Shown: positions 15,112-25,803 of the stretch, piece by piece
How the letters are laid out: the number at the start of each line of letters is the position of its first letter
Numbering within the stretch: the first letter of the stretch is position 1
Assembly (NCBI GenBank): GCA_029880245.1
Contig: JAOUOR010000009.1
Location: forward strand, 1 to 40,072
DNA: 40,072 nt
Direction: 5' to 3'
Origin: Alphaproteobacteria bacterium
GTDB lineage: Bacteria > Pseudomonadota > Alphaproteobacteria > Micavibrionales > Micavibrionaceae
Notes under the pieces: model-generated
What the model was told of the DNA's origin: nothing
Database searches by the model: none
What the model saw: the letters and a program-made list of their open reading frames with translations, nothing else
Position numbers and translations under genes: made by a program

Positions 15112-15731
15112 GTTGCGCCCAGAGCTATGGCTTTCGGGTAATCACTGCTCATGCCCATACTCAGCTGCGCCAGATCGTGTTCACTTGCGAGTTTTTTCAA
15201 AAAAGCAAAATGCACGGCTGCTGGGTCATCGATGGGCGGAATGCACATGAGCCCCCTTATATCAAGCAAGCATTCCACGCGGCAAAAATGCAAAAAATCA
15301 GGCAAATCTTTCGGAGGAATCCCCGCTTTTTGTGGTTCTTCCCCTGTATTGACCTGAATAAGGCACGGCATGGATTTATTCTGGATTTTAAGCTCTTCCC
15401 CTAGTTTTCGGGCCAGTTTCTCGCGGTCAATCGTATGAATGACATCGAAAAGGGCAATCGCGTCCTTAATTTTATTAGTCTGCAAGGGGCCGATTAAATG
15501 AAGCTCCAGATCAGGATAATCGGCCTTGAGCTCTGCCCAATGTTCCTGTGCTTCCTGTACGCGGTTTTCGCCAAAGATCCGGTGGCCATAATCAAGAGCA
15601 GCGCGAAGCTTGTCTTGAGTTTGGCGTTTGCTCACAGCTATCAGATTCACATCCTCCGGATTGCGCCCATTATTTCTAGCTATTTCCGTGATTTCCAAGT
15701 CAAGCGATTTGAAATTTTCTGCGATGGTCAT
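15066..15731 (-). CDS. yggS: YggS family PLP homeostasis protein
   Basis: 'NLIAVSKRQTQDKLRAALDYGHRIFGENRVQEAQEHW', 'HLIGPLQTNKIKDAIALFDVIHTID', 'LSMGMSSDYPKAIALGATYIRIGTALFG'. Confidence 0.95.
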   Translation of the reverse strand: MTIAENFKSLDLEITEIARNNGRNPEDVNLIAVSKRQTQDKLRAALDYGHRIFGENRVQEAQEHWAELKADYPDLELHLIGPLQTNKIKDAIALFDVIHTIDREKLARKLGEELKIQNKSMPCLIQVNTGEEPQKAGIPPKDLPDFLHFCRVECLLDIRGLMCIPPIDDPAAVHFAFLKKLASEHDLAQLSMGMSSDYPKAIALGATYIRIGTALFGERDI

Positions 15732-15746
15732 CTAGTTTCTCATACC

Positions 15747-15787
15747 GTCATTCCCTGAATCCACGTTAAGTGGATTTTAAGGGAATC
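15747..15787. repeat. Palindromic hairpin repeat of the GTCATTCC...GGAATC type
   Basis: gtcattccctgaatccac-gttaa-gtggattttaagggaatc inverted arms. Confidence 0.7.
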
Positions 15788-15810
15788 TATAATTGCTTTT
15801 AGTCATTATA

Positions 15811-16020
15811 TGGATCCCCCTAGAATTTTCTATAGCCATTTAAAATATTGATTGGACAAACCAAATCTCGTCATTCCCCGAATTTTACGCAGTAAAATTC
15901 TAGGGGAATCCAGCTAATCATGGATTGCCTTAGAATTTTTTAAAAAATTCAGGCAATGACAGGCTTGGAAACTGTCCAATTCTTATCTTAAATGGCTATA
16001 ATAAAAATTCGGGGGATGAC
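15811..16020. repeat. Split palindromic repeat whose loop is occupied by the 15831..16000 element
   Basis: Left arm tggatccccctagaatttt (15811-15829), right arm aaaaattcgggggatgac (16003-16020), as in the uninterrupted hairpin near 24130-24173. Confidence 0.65.
15831..16000. mobile_element. MITE-like element with terminal inverted repeats TATAGCCATTTAA...TTAAATGGCTATA
   Basis: Left TATAGCCATTTAAAATATTGATTGGACA, right arm reverse complement TATAGCCATTTAAGATAAGAATTGGACA; two internal hairpins; inverted partial copy at 24078..24211. Confidence 0.8.
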
Positions 16021-16033
16021 GCTCTTGAAGCGG

Positions 16034-16066
16034 GCAAAAAAGAAAGGCGCTAAAAAAGCGCCTTTC
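16034..16066 (-). terminator. Rho-independent terminator of porin gene
   Basis: Minus strand GAAAGGCGC-ttttttA-GCGCCTTTC followed by TTTTTT. Confidence 0.85.
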
Positions 16067-16090
16067 AAAAATTCTTAAGAAAACTTCAAA

Positions 16091-17170
16091 TTAGAAGTTA
16101 ACTTGTGTACCAAGGATAACAGCTGTACCATCGGCATCTGTTGTTGAGTTGTCAACATCAGTAAACTGAAGAGAACCACGGAAGGACATGCCCGGGCCGT
16201 ATTCATAGACAACACCACCTGTGTAGCGGTCATATTCAGAAGACGCAGCAGCATCGCTGTCTTGATTCAAGTAAGAAACACCGATTTTGAATGGGCCAGT
16301 TGTGTAGTCACCACCAACAACCAATGTCTCTACATCAGCATTATCAACAAAAGTTGAGTCTTCCATGTAGGCAGCACCGATACCGAAAGCAGAAACGTCA
16401 AGGTCAAGACCTACGTTCCAAGCATCGCGGTCGTCCTGAGTGGCAGTTGCTGAGTTGTTTTCAACGTGCGCAAAACCGGCACCGGCAATAACACCAACTT
16501 GGTCAAACTGACCTTCATAACGAACAGCAAGTTCATATGCTTCATCACCAACGCCGTCAGTTGTCGTTTCTGTACCAGCACCTTCAAGGTCATCAGCGGC
16601 ACCACCAGTGGTAGCATTAGAATCTGGCGTATAAGTTACACCAGCCTGGAAGCCGTTCACGATTGGTGACAAATATGTCAATTTGTCATCTTTACCTGTT
16701 GGGTCCATATCATAGTCAAGACCTTGAACGCCTGTTCCGATATTACCTGTTGCGTTGAAAGGCTGAACATATTGACGAATACCATCAACGTTTGAGTCAG
16801 CTGAAGGAGCAGCAACCTGCAGAAGGTAACCGGCACCATCTTCCGCACCAACATTCACACGACCCCAGTTACCTGAGAAATATGCGTATGATTCGTCAGT
16901 CGCAGTATTATCAGCACCATCAACATCAAGTTCGAAATGAGCACCGACTGTCAGACCGTTATCCAGAGTTGTTTCTCCACTGATGTGAAGTTCTGTATCA
17001 CGGATAATGTCGAAGTCATTTACGCTTGTGCCGGCTGTTTCGTCTTGATCAACGAATACGCCATAGCCTTTGAAATAACCACCGACGTCAAGGTCGATGT
17101 CAGCATATGCAGGAGCAGAGGCAAGAGCCAAACCGCTTACTGCAACGCTTGCAAGTAATAGTTTTTTCAT
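16091..17170 (-). CDS. Porin (outer membrane beta-barrel)
   Basis: 'MKKLLLASVAVSGLALASAPAYA' signal peptide; 'VGGYFKGYGVFVDQ', 'GRVNVGAEDGAGYLL', terminal aromatic F 'AVILGTQVNF'. Confidence 0.88.
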   Translation of the reverse strand: MKKLLLASVAVSGLALASAPAYADIDLDVGGYFKGYGVFVDQDETAGTSVNDFDIIRDTELHISGETTLDNGLTVGAHFELDVDGADNTATDESYAYFSGNWGRVNVGAEDGAGYLLQVAAPSADSNVDGIRQYVQPFNATGNIGTGVQGLDYDMDPTGKDDKLTYLSPIVNGFQAGVTYTPDSNATTGGAADDLEGAGTETTTDGVGDEAYELAVRYEGQFDQVGVIAGAGFAHVENNSATATQDDRDAWNVGLDLDVSAFGIGAAYMEDSTFVDNADVETLVVGGDYTTGPFKIGVSYLNQDSDAAASSEYDRYTGGVVYEYGPGMSFRGSLQFTDVDNSTTDADGTAVILGTQVNF

Positions 17171-17481
17171 TTTAGTTTCCTCCTAATCAATTCCTTGCGG
17201 AAAAGATTAATAGTTAAAGTTAAATCCAATAAAGGATAGTTTAAGACAGAAAGTACCCGCCAAGAGCAGGTGAACACATTACGCCATGAACAAGAGTCGG
17301 GGTCAATTTAGATTTGTGGGGTTTTTGCAACATTTTTTGCGGCTGTGATATTTTTGCAACAAATACGATTTCTGCCTTTTTTAAAAACCCCTGTTGAAAG
17401 GCATTAAAACATTGCCACAGTGTCTTGTACCATAAGCAAAGCCGTGCTAAATGAAAACTATAATAATCAGGAAAAGAAAAT

Positions 17482-18012
17482 ATGTTTAAGAGCAAGAGCG
17501 GAATTCTTATTTTAGGCGCAGCTTTACTATCTTTGGGGGCTTGCGAATCTATTAAAACCGAAGCGAAATACCCGACAGGTCTGGATCGCAACCAAACCGG
17601 AGGCGATATTTACGGCAAAAAAGAAAGTGTTTTCGGTAAGGACGGGCTAAAAGTGCTCGGCGGCAAGGATAAAAAAGAAGAAGATAACGGCATAGGTGTG
17701 AACTCTTATCTTTGGCGTGCCTCGCTGGATACGGTGTCTTTTATGCCTCTGGCCAGCGCCGATCCGTTTGGCGGGGCGATTCTGACCGATTGGTATACTG
17801 ATCCGGCAACGCCTAATGAACGTATGAAATTGAACGTATTTATTCTCGGCAAAGAGCTGAAAACACAGAACTTGCGCGTTCGTGCTTTCCGTCAGGTTAA
17901 AAAATCCGGCTCATGGGTAGATGCCGAAGTTGCCGAAAACACGGCCCGCAAATTAGAGGACGCTATTTTAACCCGCGCCCGCGAAATGCGCATTTCAAAA
18001 TTAGGCGAGTAA
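17482..18012 (+). CDS. DUF3576 family lipoprotein
   Basis: Lipobox 'LLSLGAC'; 'NSYLWRASLDTVSFMPLASADPFGGAILTDWY' family signature. Confidence 0.87.
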   Translation: MFKSKSGILILGAALLSLGACESIKTEAKYPTGLDRNQTGGDIYGKKESVFGKDGLKVLGGKDKKEEDNGIGVNSYLWRASLDTVSFMPLASADPFGGAILTDWYTDPATPNERMKLNVFILGKELKTQNLRVRAFRQVKKSGSWVDAEVAENTARKLEDAILTRAREMRISKLGE

Positions 18013-18058
18013 GTTTCGATAGATATAAAAGAGAAGATGTTCTGCATAATGCGTGTGG

Positions 18059-18164
18059 TATAGTCCTTTGAAATAGTTTCCGGATAAGGCGCGAGCGCCG
18101 CAACGTATCAAACATACGTAAGAAGCGAAGCAACGATGTCCGAAACTAAAATCAAATGACTATA
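18059..18164. mobile_element. 106 bp MITE-like palindromic element with TATAGTC termini
   Basis: Left tatagtcctttgaaatagtttccgga, right arm reverse complement tatagtcatttgattttagtttcgga; internal GC-rich palindromes. Confidence 0.75.
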
Positions 18165-18237
18165 TCTTGCGCTGCGCGAGAAATTCCGCTAAGCCTTTTC
18201 CCTTGGATTAAAACACTTTGGATTAAAATAAACACAC

Positions 18238-20919
18238 ATGACAGAGCGCTATAATATCAGGCAATCCGAAGCCAAATGGCAGAAAAAATGGGCGGAAGCT
18301 AAAAGCTTTGAGGTCGCCGAGGATGAATCTAAGGAAAAATATTACGTCCTTGAAATGTTTCCTTATCCTTCGGGGCGCATTCACGTAGGCCATGTGCGCA
18401 ATTATACGCTGGGTGATGTGGTGGCGCGCTATAAGCGGGCCAAGGGGTATAATGTTATTCATCCGATGGGCTGGGATGCGTTTGGCCTGCCGGCAGAAAA
18501 CGCGGCGATCGAGCGAGGCGCGCACCCCGCGAAATGGACGCATGAAAATATCGCCGCCATGCGTGAGCAACTGCAATCTATGGGGCTTGCGATTGACTGG
18601 TCCCGTGAATTTGCCACTTGTGATCCGGAATATTACCGCCATGAGCAGGCCATGTTCCTGAAATTTCTGGAACGTGGCATAGCGTATCGCAAGGAATCTA
18701 TTGTGAACTGGGACCCTGTGGATAACACGGTGCTGGCGAATGAACAGGTGATTGACGGTAAAGGCTGGCGGACGGGCGCCCCCGTGGAGCGCAAGAAACT
18801 TAATCAATGGTTCCTGAAAATCACCGATTATGCGGAAGAACTCCTGAGCGAGGTCAAAAAGCTGGAACGCTGGCCGGAAAAGGTCCGCATCATGCAGGAA
18901 AACTGGATCGGCAAATCTGTCGGTCTTCAGTTCAAATGGGATGTTATCCCCCCCTGTCATTCCCGCGATCCGAGAGAAAGCGAGGATTTAAACGGCGGGA
19001 ATCCAGAAAAAGACAGCAGCAAAGCTGCTGACGTTATGGATCCCGTTTGTGCCGGTTCTGCTCTGCAGAACGCCAACGGGATGACAATAGAAGTCTACAC
19101 AACTCGTCCTGATACGCTGTTCGGTGCGAGTTTTCTGGCTTTGGCGCCAGATCATCCTATGACAAAGGATCTGTGTGAGGGCAAAGACGGCTTTAAGGCG
19201 TTTATCAAGGAATGCCAAGCCCATGGCACGTCCGAGGCCGCCATTGAAAAGGCCGAGAAGATCGGTTTCGATACAGGGTATAAAGCTACGCATCCGCTTT
19301 TGGGCCGCGAGGTTCCAATTTATATTGCGAATTTTATCCTGATGGATTATGGAACTGGCGCGATTTTCGGTGTGCCTGCCCATGACCAGCGCGACTTGGA
19401 TTTTTCCACGAAATACGGCTTGCAAATCACCCAAGTTGTCGCCGAGCGCGAGTTTTCTTCTTCGCCGTGTTCATTGCCCAAGGAGGAATTCGAGGTTTAT
19501 ACAGGCGAGGGCCGCATGATCAATTCGGATTTCCTGAACGGGATGGAAAATGAAAAGGCCAAGGCGGAGGTTATCAAGAAATGTGAAGAGGACGGTAGCG
19601 GCTTTGGTAAAACCAATTTCCGTTTGCGCGATTGGGGTGTGAGCCGCCAGAGATATTGGGGCTGCCCTATTCCTATTATTTATTGCGGAGATTGCGGTGC
19701 GGTTCCTGTGCCGGAAAAAGACCTGCCCGTGACTTTGCCCGAAGATGTCTCTTTCGATAAGCCGGGTAATCCGCTGGTCCATCATCCTTCATGGAAAAAT
19801 GTCGATTGCCCGTCTTGCGGCAAGGCAGCGCAAAGGGAAACCGATACATTCGATACATTTTTTGAAAGTAGCTGGTATCAATTCCGTTATTGCGACCCGA
19901 AGAATGAAAGCTTGCCCGTGGGTAAGGATAAGGCAAAATACTGGATGCCGGTCGAGCAATATATTGGCGGGGTCGAGCATGCGGTTCTTCACCTTCTCTA
20001 TGCGAGGTTCTTCACCAAGATCATGCGCGATTGCGGCTTTGTCGAATGTGACGAGCCTTTTTCCGGTTTGTTTACGCAAGGCATGGTCACGCATGAAACC
20101 TATCAGGATGAAAATGGCAAGTGGGTTTTTCCAACGGATGCCATCAAGAAAGAAGGGAAATGGGTGCATGCGGAAAGCGGCAAGCCTGTGAAAGTCGGCC
20201 CGTCGATTAAAATGTCGAAATCCAAAAAGAACGTCATCGACCCCGAAGCTATATTTGAAACTTACGGCGCGGATGCGGCGAGGCTCTTTATTCTCTCCGA
20301 CTCCCCGCCCGAGCGTGATCTGGAGTGGACAGAAAGCGGCATTGAAGGGGCTTGGCGTTTTGTAAATAAGGTTTATGCAACTCTTAAGGCAATCGAGCGT
20401 ACAGAATCTTCCGGCGACCTTTCCGAAAAAGGCGAAGACCTCCGGCGTTTAATGCACAAAACTATCAAGGCAACAGGTGAGGCGATTGAGGCTTTTGCCA
20501 TGAATAAGGCTGTGGCGGTTTTACGTGAGTTCTATAATGGCTTGAGCAGCTTTAAGCCACAGAATGATGGTGATAAGGTAATGCTTGGCGAAGCGGCGGA
20601 AACCTTTATTATTTTAGTAAATCCCATTATGCCGCATCTTGCCGAGGAGCTTTGGGAAATCCTTGGTCATAAGGAGATATTGGCCGATACGCCTTGGCCA
20701 TCTTTCGATGAAAGTCTGCTCAAGGCCGATACGGTAACAATCGGCGTGCAGGTCAATGGCAAGGTGCGTGCAACCATTACATTGGCGGCCGATGCAGGAA
20801 AAGACGAGGCCGAAAAGATTGCTCTCGCTGATGAAAAAGTCCAGCGCGCTATCGGTGATAAAACTGTGCGTAAAGTCATTGTCGTACCGGGCAGAATCGT
20901 CAATGTTGTGGTAGGGTAG
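18238..20919 (+). CDS. leuS: Leucyl-tRNA synthetase, with ~43-aa repeat-derived insertion
   Basis: HIGH-type '[14 protein letters not shown]', 'KMSKSKKNV', '[15 protein letters not shown]' editing domain. Confidence 0.98.
18956..19085. repeat. In-frame palindromic repeat element inside leuS
   Basis: GTCATTCCCGC...GCGGGAATCCAG / CAGCAGCaaaGCTGCTG / TGGATCCCGTT...AACGGGATGAC nested hairpins; outer ends inverted; same GTCATTCC/GGATGAC logic as intergenic repeats. Confidence 0.8.
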
Positions 20920-20923
20920 AAAT

Positions 20924-21433
20924 ATGAAATCAAAACTCTCACTCATCGCCTTTCTTTTTCTTTCTGCCTGTGGTTTCACGCCGATGTATGGTAATCTGAG
21001 CGGAGATTCCCAAAAAACAGAGCAAGTGCGTGAGGTTCTGTCCAATATCGAGATTGGCAATATCCCCGATGCGGAAGGTCAGTATTTACGGAATTTATTG
21101 ATTGATCGTTTCTATAAGGAAGGCTATCCGGATGATGCAAGGTATATCCTATCGGTAAGCCCCGTACAGGAAAGTGTTATTGATCTGGATATTACCAAGA
21201 CTTCCGATGCGACGCGCGGTCAGATGAAAGTTACCACAACAATGAAACTGACCGATAAAACTACCGGTAAAGTCGTGTTGACGAGAGGCTTGCGCTCCCT
21301 AAACAGCTTTAACATATTGAACAGCGAGTTTACCAATAGGGTTTCCAAGGAAAATACCCGCAAAAACGCGCTTGAGGATATAGCCCGGCAAGTCGAGCAA
21401 CAAATTGCGTTGTATTTAAATCGGCAAAAATAA
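20924..21433 (+). CDS. lptE: LPS assembly lipoprotein LptE
   Basis: Lipobox 'FLFLSACGFTPMYG'; position between leuS and holA; 'NALEDIARQVEQQIALYL'. Confidence 0.88.
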   Translation: MKSKLSLIAFLFLSACGFTPMYGNLSGDSQKTEQVREVLSNIEIGNIPDAEGQYLRNLLIDRFYKEGYPDDARYILSVSPVQESVIDLDITKTSDATRGQMKVTTTMKLTDKTTGKVVLTRGLRSLNSFNILNSEFTNRVSKENTRKNALEDIARQVEQQIALYLNRQK

Positions 21434-21520
21434 TATTCAATGTAACGCTCTTTTATTTGTCATCGAAAAAGATGATAGTTATTTTGGAAGGACACTAATT
21501 TCTATTATAAGGTTCATTTT

Positions 21521-22975
21521 ATGTCCGATGTTAAAGCCTCTGATTTTTCGGAAATAGATTCGCCCGGGGATGTTTGGGGCCTGTATCAAGGCGTTGGTGT
21601 AAACAGTAAATCCGGCATAGAAACTGAATTTCCGTTTTTTAGTGCTGATGAGCCGGATATGCCGGCAATGAATTTGTCCCAGAACAAGGCTTTAAAACAA
21701 GCTGCTATGAATGCCCTTCAAGGTGACTGGCTTCGTAACGAGCCAACCAGTGATTTGCTGGAAGTAACCTCGATCGCCATGCCGTTTAAAGAATGGAAAA
21801 CGGTTCTGGATGATACACAAAAGAAAATCAATATCTTAAGTCAAAAGGCTGGAGAGCTAGGTCTCAAGCGATCATATTTTCAGGAATTTCCGGATAAAAC
21901 AGCAGATGAGCTGCTTTCGCGTATTGTGGATATTGAACGCTATAAGATCATGTATGCGCCCTATCGCGCGGATATGTATGAATGTGTGCGGTATTTCGCC
22001 GTATGTAAATCCATGCAGGTTTCTGTAAGCCCCGGAAATGAAGATCATATGCTGGAAAATATCCGTAGGCTCTATACGCTTGCCCCGTTTTTATTCCTGC
22101 TAACGGGGAATAGCTCTGGCTTTATGGAAGGCAAATTTTTTAGCGGGCATCAGGGAATGTTCCTGCGCCGTAACGGGCTTCGGGAAAATCGAGGGGGTAT
22201 ACCGCCCTATGTGTATACAGCTCAAAGCGGTGAGGAGTTTATTGCCAATCATATTCATCATGTAATGAATAATCCGCTTTTCATGTTTTATGATCGCAAA
22301 GGCGTTCTTACGCGTGTGCCGTCTGGCGATTGGAGCGTCACTTTTGAATCGCTGAAGAAAAAAGGTCTGAATACGGGCAGTAATTACTTTTTGGCCCAGA
22401 GCATTATGTGGCCTGATGTCAAAATCGCAGCGCTGACAGATGAATCGGGAGATGTTTATGCGCACCGTTATGAAGCGCGTATGTTCGGCGTTGGAAATCA
22501 TCAGCATCAAACAGCGTATCTGATAACGACAGCCTTGGCTTTTGATCCTGATTTTGCGCATTCCGTTGATGGACTACTTAAGGCTTACGGCTTTGATCAA
22601 AAAACAGATTTGCCCTATACCTATAAATTGGTGAAAGATGCTTATAGCGCCGCTGAGAATCATAATGGTGCGTTTTTCGATATCGCCTATGGTAATGGGC
22701 GTATGAGCGACTTTGCCAAAATTTTTGCCGATTTGCTCGAAAACATGGCTGAGCGTCATGATATGCGAGGCGAACTATTGCCTGCGATCACAATTTGCCG
22801 TACAGGGTGCACGGATTCAAAAGTGAACTGCCTTATGTTCCCGACATATGAAGAAGTCTTAAATTTTCAGAAATCCTATGATCCGGCGATTTTTGATAAT
22901 CCGAATCTCTCGGCCTCCATGATTTTCGAAGATCGGATGAGTACAAAAACAGGCAACTTAAACTGTGCGGCGTGA
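21521..22975 (+). CDS. Divergent glutamate-cysteine ligase-like (GCS2-type) carboxylate-amine ligase
   Basis: 'SGIETEFPFF', 'CKSMQVSVSPGNEDHMLENIRRLYTLAPFLFLLTGNSSGFMEGK', 'GGIPPYVY', 'YEARMFGVGNHQHQTAYL' resemble the GCL order of motifs. Confidence 0.6.
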   Translation: MSDVKASDFSEIDSPGDVWGLYQGVGVNSKSGIETEFPFFSADEPDMPAMNLSQNKALKQAAMNALQGDWLRNEPTSDLLEVTSIAMPFKEWKTVLDDTQKKINILSQKAGELGLKRSYFQEFPDKTADELLSRIVDIERYKIMYAPYRADMYECVRYFAVCKSMQVSVSPGNEDHMLENIRRLYTLAPFLFLLTGNSSGFMEGKFFSGHQGMFLRRNGLRENRGGIPPYVYTAQSGEEFIANHIHHVMNNPLFMFYDRKGVLTRVPSGDWSVTFESLKKKGLNTGSNYFLAQSIMWPDVKIAALTDESGDVYAHRYEARMFGVGNHQHQTAYLITTALAFDPDFAHSVDGLLKAYGFDQKTDLPYTYKLVKDAYSAAENHNGAFFDIAYGNGRMSDFAKIFADLLENMAERHDMRGELLPAITICRTGCTDSKVNCLMFPTYEEVLNFQKSYDPAIFDNPNLSASMIFEDRMSTKTGNLNCAA

Positions 22976-23025
22976 TGCGGGTGAAATTTCTTGCGCTCCT
23001 ATACCGACTCACTTAACCTTGTCTT

Positions 23026-24048
23026 ATGAAGCTGCAATTCCGTGATATAGAGCCGTTTGTTAAAAATCCAAATAGGCAAGCGCGTGTTATCCTTATTTAC
23101 GGGCCGGATCATGGCCTGATAAAAGAGCGAGCCGCAATTATAGGCAAGACAATCGTTCAGGATTTGAATGATCCTTTTAATGCGGCGGTCATAGATGCCG
23201 GCGCCTTGCTCGAAGACCCTGCCAAGCTCTCGGACGAAGCCAATGCCATGTCCATGATGGGCGGCAATCGTCTTGTGCGCGTAGAAGGGGCGAGCGATAA
23301 AATAACCAAAATCCTGCAAGATTATCTGGCTGATCCCTCACCGGATAATCTGGTTCTGGTCCTGGCTGGTGAGCTAGGCCCGCGCTCACCTTTGCGTGCA
23401 TTATGTGAGAAAGACAAGGCTGCTGTGGCTCTGCCGTGCTATGTGGAGGATGCGCGGGATCTGACCCGCTTTATCCGCGAAACACTGGCGGCGGAGAAAC
23501 TCAACGCCGATCCTGACACAGTTCTATGGCTGAGTGAAAATATCTCCGGTGATCGCCTGAAAGTACGCAGCGAGCTTGATAAGCTGATGACCTATATCGG
23601 GCCGGATCAAAAATCAGTATCACTGGAAGATGCCGTTACTGCGTGCGCCTCGGCGGGGGCACAGAATTTCGATGATCTGGTTTACGGCGTGGCGGGCGGC
23701 AATAGTGACGCGGCGCTAAAAACCTATGCGAGTATGATGGAAGAAGGGGTTCCTTTTATTACGGTGCTGCGGGTGCTTCAAAACCATTTCCGCAGGCTCC
23801 ATATGACCAAAGCCCATATGGCGGATGGGGCGGATATGGATATGGCGATGAAAAAACTCAGCCCCCCTGTATTTTTCAAGCAAGCCCCCGCTTTCAAAAA
23901 ACAGCTTAATAACTGGTCGCTGCAAGGTCTTGATAAGGTGATGGAACGCCTTACCGATCTCGAAGCGCAGTGCAAACGCACCGGCATGCCAAGCGAAACG
24001 CTATGCGCTCAGGCGATTTTATCCATGAGCCGGATGCGCGCAGCGTAA
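23026..24048 (+). CDS. holA: DNA polymerase III delta subunit
   Basis: 'RVILIYGPDHGLIKERAAIIGKTI', 'SMMGGNRLVRVEGA', 'WLSENISGDRLKVRSELDKLMTYIG'. Confidence 0.94.
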   Translation: MKLQFRDIEPFVKNPNRQARVILIYGPDHGLIKERAAIIGKTIVQDLNDPFNAAVIDAGALLEDPAKLSDEANAMSMMGGNRLVRVEGASDKITKILQDYLADPSPDNLVLVLAGELGPRSPLRALCEKDKAAVALPCYVEDARDLTRFIRETLAAEKLNADPDTVLWLSENISGDRLKVRSELDKLMTYIGPDQKSVSLEDAVTACASAGAQNFDDLVYGVAGGNSDAALKTYASMMEEGVPFITVLRVLQNHFRRLHMTKAHMADGADMDMAMKKLSPPVFFKQAPAFKKQLNNWSLQGLDKVMERLTDLEAQCKRTGMPSETLCAQAILSMSRMRAA

Positions 24049-24077
24049 GAGTTTATTTGTCTTCCCTTGCAGCGATC

Positions 24078-24211
24078 GTCATTGCCTGAATTTTTTTTAA
24101 AAAAAATTCTAAGGCAATCCATAATTATCTGGATTCCCCTAGAATTTTACTGCGTAAAATTCGGGGAATGACGAGAATTGATTTGTCCAATTCTTATCTT
24201 AAATGACTATA
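24078..24211 (-). mobile_element. Partial copy, inverse orientation, of the 15831..16000 element
   Basis: Reverse complement TATAGTCATTTAAGATAAGAATTGGACAAAT...CATTCCCCGAATTTTACGCAGTAAAATTCTAGGGGAATCCAG...GGCAATGAC matches 15831..15960; second TATAG terminus absent. Confidence 0.75.
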
Positions 24212-24234
24212 GTCCGTTCCCGATACCCCGCCGA

Positions 24235-24930
24235 TCAGCCCGGTCCATGACCGGGTGATGACGGCGGGTGTTGAGTAGGTGAGTACATAAGCTTTTCTAA
24301 TGTGATTATTTCCAACTGGGCGTTTGCTCTATCCTCTACACCACTCCATCCTTTCCTTTTGGCCAGTTCTAATACCTCATTGATTTCTGAGGAGGCTTTA
24401 TCATACATTTTTTTTGATAGCAGGTAGTCTGCTTTAACAAAATAAGTCGAAGTATATGATGGTTTCTGACTTTTGGCCTTGTCCCAAGCCTTAAAGGCTT
24501 CTTTTTCTTTTCCCTGTTCTGCTAAAGACATTCCTAGATAACAGTAAGCATTTGCTGTATTAAGTTGTTGGCTACCGGCCAATTCAATGGATTTTTTGTA
24601 ATATTTTTCCGCTTCCTCATACTGTTCTAGCCAAAAAAGTGCCGATGCTGCCAGTTCACGTGATTCAAATTCATCAGGATGCTTTTTTATATACTGCTCC
24701 AAAACATCAAAGGCTTCTTGATATTGACCTGCCATTCCCAAACATCTGGCATAATATTTTGCAGCTCTTGAATTCGGAGCGAGGCCATATGCCTTTTCTG
24801 CCAATGATTTGATATGCTTGTCCCCAAAATCCACGGTATCCGCTTTTCTAACGGTATCCGCTTTTCTATATGTATCTATCTCTCTAAGGAACTCTTCTGC
24901 CCTAAGTTCTTTATAGTAGTCATCTGCCAT
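24235..24930 (-). CDS. Tetratricopeptide repeat protein, copy A
   Basis: 'AKYYARCLGMAGQYQEAFDVLEQYIKKHPDEFESRELAASALFWLEQYEEAEKYYKKSIELA' TPRs. Confidence 0.85.
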   Translation of the reverse strand: MADDYYKELRAEEFLREIDTYRKADTVRKADTVDFGDKHIKSLAEKAYGLAPNSRAAKYYARCLGMAGQYQEAFDVLEQYIKKHPDEFESRELAASALFWLEQYEEAEKYYKKSIELAGSQQLNTANAYCYLGMSLAEQGKEKEAFKAWDKAKSQKPSYTSTYFVKADYLLSKKMYDKASSEINEVLELAKRKGWSGVEDRANAQLEIITLEKLMYSPTQHPPSSPGHGPG

Positions 24931-25027
24931 TTACTCTTTTCCTTATTCTTTAAACAACCCTGTTTGGTTTTTGGGTTTTTACACGGTTTTTTTGAAATCG
25001 TCAAAGAAACTTGCCATAAGGCGATCA
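24931..25027. repeat. Duplicated 5' region of TPR gene (copy A)
   Basis: 60 bp identical to 25744..25803 (tttttgggtttttacacgg...ccataaggcgatca) plus near-identical flank. Confidence 0.9.
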
Positions 25028-25705
25028 GCCCGGCCCATCATTGGGTGATGACGGTGGAGGTTCAAGGAGACGCTTTTTCTGGTTATCTGTTATTTCTTTA
25101 ATATGATTTCTTGCTATACCCTCTATAACTTTCATTTTTAATTTTTTTGCATTTTCAAATGCCACAGTAAATTCGAATTCAGCTTCTTCTTTCTTGCCTC
25201 TTGCTAGGAAGTGGCGTCCTACAAAAAGATAAGGTACAGGATATGATTGGTCATGCCTCTTGGCCGTACGCAAAGCGTCAATAGCTTTACCAACTTTTCT
25301 TTGTGCTTGTAAAGACAATCCCAGATAACTGTAAGCAATCGCATTGGATCTTGCGTCAAAACCCACTTCAATACCCACGTCAATAGCTTGTCTGCAATAT
25401 TGTTCTACCTGTTTATAGCGCTCTAATTCAGCAAGGGATATCAGCGCGTGGTGATACGGTTCGAATTCATATGGATGATTGTTTATATAAGGCTCTAAAA
25501 TATTAAGGGCTTCTTGATGTTGACCTGTCGCTGCTAAACTTTTGGCATAGTATTTTGCGGCTCTTGAATCCGGAGCGAGTTCATAAGCCTCTTCTGCCAT
25601 TGATATGATCTGTTTGTCCCCAAAACCCAATATGTGTTCTTTTGTATATGTATCTATATCATCAAGAATCTCTTCTGCTTTAAGTTCGTCAAAGTTTTCT
25701 GCCAT
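25025..25705 (-). CDS. Tetratricopeptide repeat protein, copy B
   Basis: 'ALNILEPYINNHPYEFEPYHHALISLAELERYKQVEQYCRQAID'; paralogous to 24235..24930 and shares 'PPSSPxxGPG' C-terminus. Confidence 0.85.
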   Translation of the reverse strand: MAENFDELKAEEILDDIDTYTKEHILGFGDKQIISMAEEAYELAPDSRAAKYYAKSLAATGQHQEALNILEPYINNHPYEFEPYHHALISLAELERYKQVEQYCRQAIDVGIEVGFDARSNAIAYSYLGLSLQAQRKVGKAIDALRTAKRHDQSYPVPYLFVGRHFLARGKKEEAEFEFTVAFENAKKLKMKVIEGIARNHIKEITDNQKKRLLEPPPSSPNDGPG

Positions 25706-25803
25706 TTACTCTATTTCCTTACTCTTTAAACGACCCTGTTTGATTTTTGGGTTTTTACACGGTTTTTTTGAAATCGTCAAAGAAACTTGCCATAAGGCGA
25801 TCA
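25706..25803. repeat. Duplicated 5' region of TPR gene (copy B)
   Basis: Identical 60 bp block shared with 24968..25027. Confidence 0.9.

Follow-up and report, generated by a model that had tools for sequence, protein, structure and literature searches.

CGTC-tagged REPs have been described as repeats without a dedicated transposase, and their mobilisation by other transposases has been posed as a question (Di Nocera et al. 2013, PMC3733652). Published units have stems of 8-9 bp and loops of 4-5 nt, and the CGTC-1 family is listed in Micavibrio aeruginosavorus; some REP families form only heterodimers, for which protection from long-palindrome removal has been suggested (PMC3733652). The closest precedent for the locus reported here is the palindrome-borne REP dimers of Anabaena variabilis (GTAG-15 dimers in TATAGGA...TCCTATA palindromes) and Halothiobacillus neapolitanus (CGTC-1 dimers in 41-bp palindromes), in which the dimer always lies inside the TIR-like palindrome and no palindrome is empty (PMC3733652). 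No transposon family was named in either case. REPINs or BIMEs, which occur with RAYT, are also made of REP hairpins in inverted pairs scattered over a genome (PMC2817692, PMC3116915). Orphan MITEs of 100-170 bp with TA targets and a link to IS630 are represented by the Correia elements of Neisseria, which have TATAG ends (PMC2649163), and by RUP of pneumococcus (PMC2229807).

We analysed a window of 40,072 nucleotides, the whole stretch of DNA considered, from a Micavibrionales genome available as a 2.15-Mb draft of 125 contigs. For one gene of the window, the best match bearing a name was in Micavibrio sp. UBA1672 (78%). At positions 15831-16000 the window holds an orphan IS630-type MITE that carries a CGTC-REP dimer and lies inside the loop of another CGTC-REP. 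We class it as an orphan of IS630 type because its ends match the IS630 family in relatives and its own draft genome (125 contigs) has no DDE_3 match. The nest has three layers, a REP dimer around a MITE around a REP dimer, with one REP family throughout:

15746 to 16021, strand not assigned: host CGTC-REP heterodimer, split by the MITE, with unit 1 at 15746-15789 and the arms of unit 2 at 15811-15830 and 16001-16021, recognised from sequence and from the unit consensus of the genome-wide census
15831 to 16000, strand not assigned: IS630-type MITE of 170 bp, TATAG...CTATA, multi-copy, with a TIR match to IS630 ends
15831 to 15858, plus strand: left TIR of the MITE, sharing 25/28 positions with the left terminus of an IS630-like element in the relative G013
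15869 to 15960, strand not assigned: CGTC-REP heterodimer inside the MITE and its best-conserved part, made of unit GTCATTCCCC... (15869-15912) and inverted unit GTCATTGCCT... (15921-15960)
15973 to 16000, minus strand: right TIR of the MITE

The original prediction, made from the letters of the window, had described a 170-bp element with imperfect TIRs of about 28 bp and two inner hairpins. All of these are present; the TIRs are 28 bp long and complementary at 24/28 positions. The flanks of the MITE, TGGATCCCCCTAGAATTTT and AAAAATTCGGGGGATGACG (15811-15830 and 16001-16021), are complementary arms of a separate hairpin, as had been claimed, and flanks and TIRs together make up a 45-nt inverted repeat that is 78% complementary. 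Folding of 291 nt around the MITE gave z = -7.4 relative to shuffles, with none of 200 shuffles as good. The MITE has no coding capacity (no ORF of at least 80 aa within it), an Rfam search of 15500-24500 yielded no real match, and a promoter arising from the insertion was rejected, the match being only weak (3 sites, 1.5 expected).

One part of the prediction fell. The hairpin at 24130-24173, taken for an uninterrupted version of the flank hairpin, is an inner hairpin of a second, one-armed MITE copy (24078-24211), and as the interior of that copy it was rejected as an empty flank site. It belongs to the same REP family as the split flank hairpin. The proposed insertion of one repeat family into the loop of another stands as an insertion; what had been missed is that the MITE interior is a REP dimer of the flank's family, so that the cargo of the MITE and the flank it interrupts are both dimers of one CGTC-REP family.

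The REP unit follows the consensus (C)GTCAT-NN-CCY-GAAT-(inner stem and loop)-ATTC-TA-RGG-NN-AT-CCA, with two inverted copies per dimer and the tags outward. Searching for the exact pattern gave 62 units in the genome, compared with none for a reversed control pattern, and units in 19 of 115 genomes; relying on one exact pattern, this census misses diverged units, among them unit 1 of the flank, which reads ATTTTA instead of ATTCTA. The units bear the marks of CGTC-REPs, namely a CGTC or TGTC tag, a stem starting with AT and a CCA tail, and share with the published families the inverted dimers and the lack of a dedicated transposase. They differ in a stem longer than 8-9 bp with a TA bulge, a fixed GAAT/ATTC block, an inner part of 9-15 nt with free inner-stem sequence in place of a 4-5 nt loop, and dimers of unlike units only. 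As the stem exceeds the published length, we consider the family an unlisted variant of the CGTC-REP superfamily, outside the four published CGTC families. REPINs and BIMEs are likewise inverted hairpin pairs dispersed in a genome, but the tag here is CGTC, not GTAG, and the genome is without a Y1 transposase.

All 63 close REP pairs (27 in this genome, 36 in relatives) consist of inverted units whose tags point outward. The variable stem dinucleotide differs between the units of every pair, where chance would make it the same in about 18; some pairs are related by descent, and counting the MITE cores once leaves 23 pairs in this genome, again with none identical. The pairing of unlike hairpins would fit a removal of identical pairs, two matching units amounting to a single long palindrome. 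Among 155 units (from G000, G006, G028, G068 and other genomes), the third variable stem position is T-A 58 times, T-G 54 times, C-G 43 times and never C-A. The two units of a dimer occupy opposite strands, so a single transcript would hardly account for a T-G bias that they share; the bias would fit a constraint acting, in each unit, on the tag-first strand.

The MITE family comprises four full copies, two defective copies and one possible relic in this genome:

C64, 15831 to 16000: full copy (the window)
C72, 14474 to 14645: full copy
C42, 4575 to 4745: full copy
C11, 14198 to 14364: full copy
C83, 6569: defective copy
C64, 24078 to 24211, minus strand: defective copy in the window without one TIR, matching over 118 nt at 91% and holding the 24130-24173 hairpin
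C4, 18447: possible relic

In the genome-wide copy search that had been proposed with the original prediction, the other copies ended at identical TATAG / CTATA positions, so that the prediction withstood its own test of refutation. The 400-bp flanks of the copies (the C4 relic left out) have no similarity to one another, and the copies are therefore separate insertions; multiple copies with unrelated flanks bear out the identification as a MITE. Among the 115 genomes searched, its own included, the complete MITE was found in this genome alone, with just the core elsewhere. TA is present at both ends of all full copies, consistent with the use of TA as target, and insertion may have duplicated it. 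Reconstruction of the hairpin at the split REP is compatible with one TA kept, as it is with other counts. Strain polymorphism or a close empty site was sought and not found, the nearest relative being only about 75% identical at the locus.

The position and orientation of the inner REP core do not vary between copies of the MITE; the core therefore travelled with it. Among the four full copies the core varies in 5 of 92 columns, versus 23 of 76 in the TIRs and linkers (p = 2e-5). Such conservation is unexpected for an inert passenger and counts against the explanation that we favour; selection, conversion among REPs or a later insertion of REPs could each be its cause. Under the last of these, the MITE shells would be old, and REP dimers would have been added to each of them separately at a later time, always at one favoured site, with the MITE not their carrier. 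The lower divergence of the core between copies agrees with such a history, and REP dimers of other bacteria have been described as "inserted within" palindromes (Di Nocera et al., PMC3733652). However, the position, orientation and linkers are identical in all copies, and no shell without a dimer was seen in this family, as in Anabaena and Halothiobacillus, while a second MITE family in the genome has no dimers. The cores are also 93-99% identical among MITE copies and only 70-83% identical to the ten free-standing dimers compared. The fixed arrangement and the lack of empty shells argue against later insertion as the cause of core conservation, and we regard this history as quite improbable.

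The IS630-like terminus matching the left TIR adjoins the start of a transposase and is seen at the ends of two G013 contigs. As background for the 25 matching positions, the 372 TATA-starting 28-mers of the window had a mean of about 10.5 matches, and the few high scorers include the TIRs themselves. The reading frame adjoining this end begins MHYPITFRRKVLAQIKEGMSKREAARLF, a 28-aa stretch that alone gives a weak HTH match only, and the other IS end, at contigs C6/C7 of G013, encodes a DDE_3 C-terminus; seen at broken contig ends with the middle unassembled, the two ends are probably parts of one IS. IS630 elements of relatives measure 893-931 bp and have TATAG/TATAA termini and IS630-type transposase frames, and the one scanned against Pfam, from G098, contains HTH_Tnp_IS630 and DDE_3. 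A 522-bp IS630 element in G028 (L154, 1501-2022), internally deleted with both ends kept, represents a stage midway from full IS to MITE. The suggestion that a TA-targeting, IS630-like transposase was involved thus gains from the TIR match to elements in relatives. A transposase in the same genome is not strictly defining for an IS630-derived MITE, orphan MITEs being known; cut-and-paste transposition and the past presence of the transposase in this genome are likely. The MITE shares its size, its IS630 link and probably its TA targets with Correia elements and RUP, and its TATAG ends with the former. Beyond TATAG its TIR is unlike theirs, reading TATAG[CT]CATTTAA... where Correia elements have TATAG[CT]GGATTAA..., which sets it apart from the Correia family, and Correia and RUP cores are not REP dimers. 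On many contigs of the relative G012 we counted about 22 IS630-type matches, several of them at contig starts, an expansion of IS630 in that genome.

The nest lies between a porin gene and yggS (Ala_racemase_N), and both the outer dimer and the MITE were inserted downstream of the porin terminator:

16042 to 16066, minus strand: intrinsic porin terminator, undamaged and lying upstream of both insertions, also visible in relatives

This gene order is conserved in 22 relatives with spacers of 55-241 bp, all without the MITE, and the spacer in the genome studied is 359 bp; in the nearest relative, G006, it is 82 bp with a recognisable porin terminator. Since the MITE splits the outer hairpin, the dimer was there before it, and the MITE-free orthologous spacers support the relative chronology first proposed from the sequence. 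No strain with the outer dimer but without the MITE was found among the relatives. The nest provides a clean relative date, with a REP dimer present before the MITE moved. An ancestral short spacer would have been entered by a CGTC-REP dimer, and a MITE already holding a REP dimer would then have landed at a TA within one outer hairpin's loop. The mover would have been an IS630-family transposase acting in trans, recognising the TATAG... TIRs, inserting at TA and now absent from the genome. Given the multi-copy composite with common ends and unrelated flanks, the MITE-free spacers of relatives, the TIR match and the absence of a transposase, we assign a probability of roughly 0.86 to a non-autonomous IS630/Tc1-mariner-type MITE with a CGTC-REP dimer as cargo that was moved in trans and landed in the hairpin loop of an older REP dimer.

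The shared family of outer and inner REPs, and their ability to fold as one long stem, would suit a single larger mobile unit made of outer dimer, MITE and inner dimer. Yet the outer arms are absent from every other MITE copy and the flanks are dissimilar, which already contradicts a large mobile nest and makes it extremely improbable. It is also conceivable that the MITE did not land by chance, REP hairpin loops being a preferred target of the transposase: REPs are known as IS targets in other bacteria (cited in PMC2817692), and on C108 a MITE of the second family has a REP dimer about 14 bp away. Only one of six copies of the 170-bp family lies within a REP, however, and not one of the second family's 13 matched copies does; a single event cannot show a preference for REP loops; we consider such targeting unlikely.

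Y1 genes were present in 5 of the 19 genomes that have the REP repeats and in 28 of the 96 that lack them, and the own genome has no Y1 (RAYT) transposase. With no Y1 gene here and no association across relatives, RAYT was rejected as the mover of these REPs. The copies of the MITE show that this REP dimer, at least, was copied round the genome within an IS630-type shell, and as CGTC-REPs have no known transposase, such a shell is a plausible vehicle for some of their copies. In contrast to the Anabaena and Halothiobacillus palindromes, the shell here has been linked to IS630 ends, and a REP of its cargo's family surrounds it in turn. Only 6-7 of the roughly 30 dimers in the genome lie in MITE shells and most stand alone. 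CGTC-REP dimers might in general spread inside IS630-type shells and stay behind as free dimers once the shell decays, which would also explain the Anabaena dimers in TATAG palindromes; we hold this extension to be doubtful. In this RAYT-free genome, a REP dimer in a multi-copy element with the ends of a named transposase family makes CGTC-REP mobility testable.

The second MITE family (TATAGTCATTTGAGATAGTTTCCGGACA...) yielded 13 end-to-end matches and many partial ones, and combines Correia-like size and ends with a different core. Its sites are the one in the window and others on contigs C108, C110, C86, C105 (3 copies), C1, C103, C37, C62, C24 and C72:

18059 to 18164, plus strand: second-family MITE of about 106 bp whose TIR tips are related to those of the 170-bp family and which has no REP inside

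Elsewhere in the window, at 24235-25803, two adjacent TPR-protein genes form an apparent tandem duplication in which the upstream regions were copied as well (90 nt at 97%). Intergenic clusters of several short hairpin repeats occur at L189 (C52) and L190 (C72), with the REP subfamily CCACGYTAAGTGG recurring every 235-250 bp or so.
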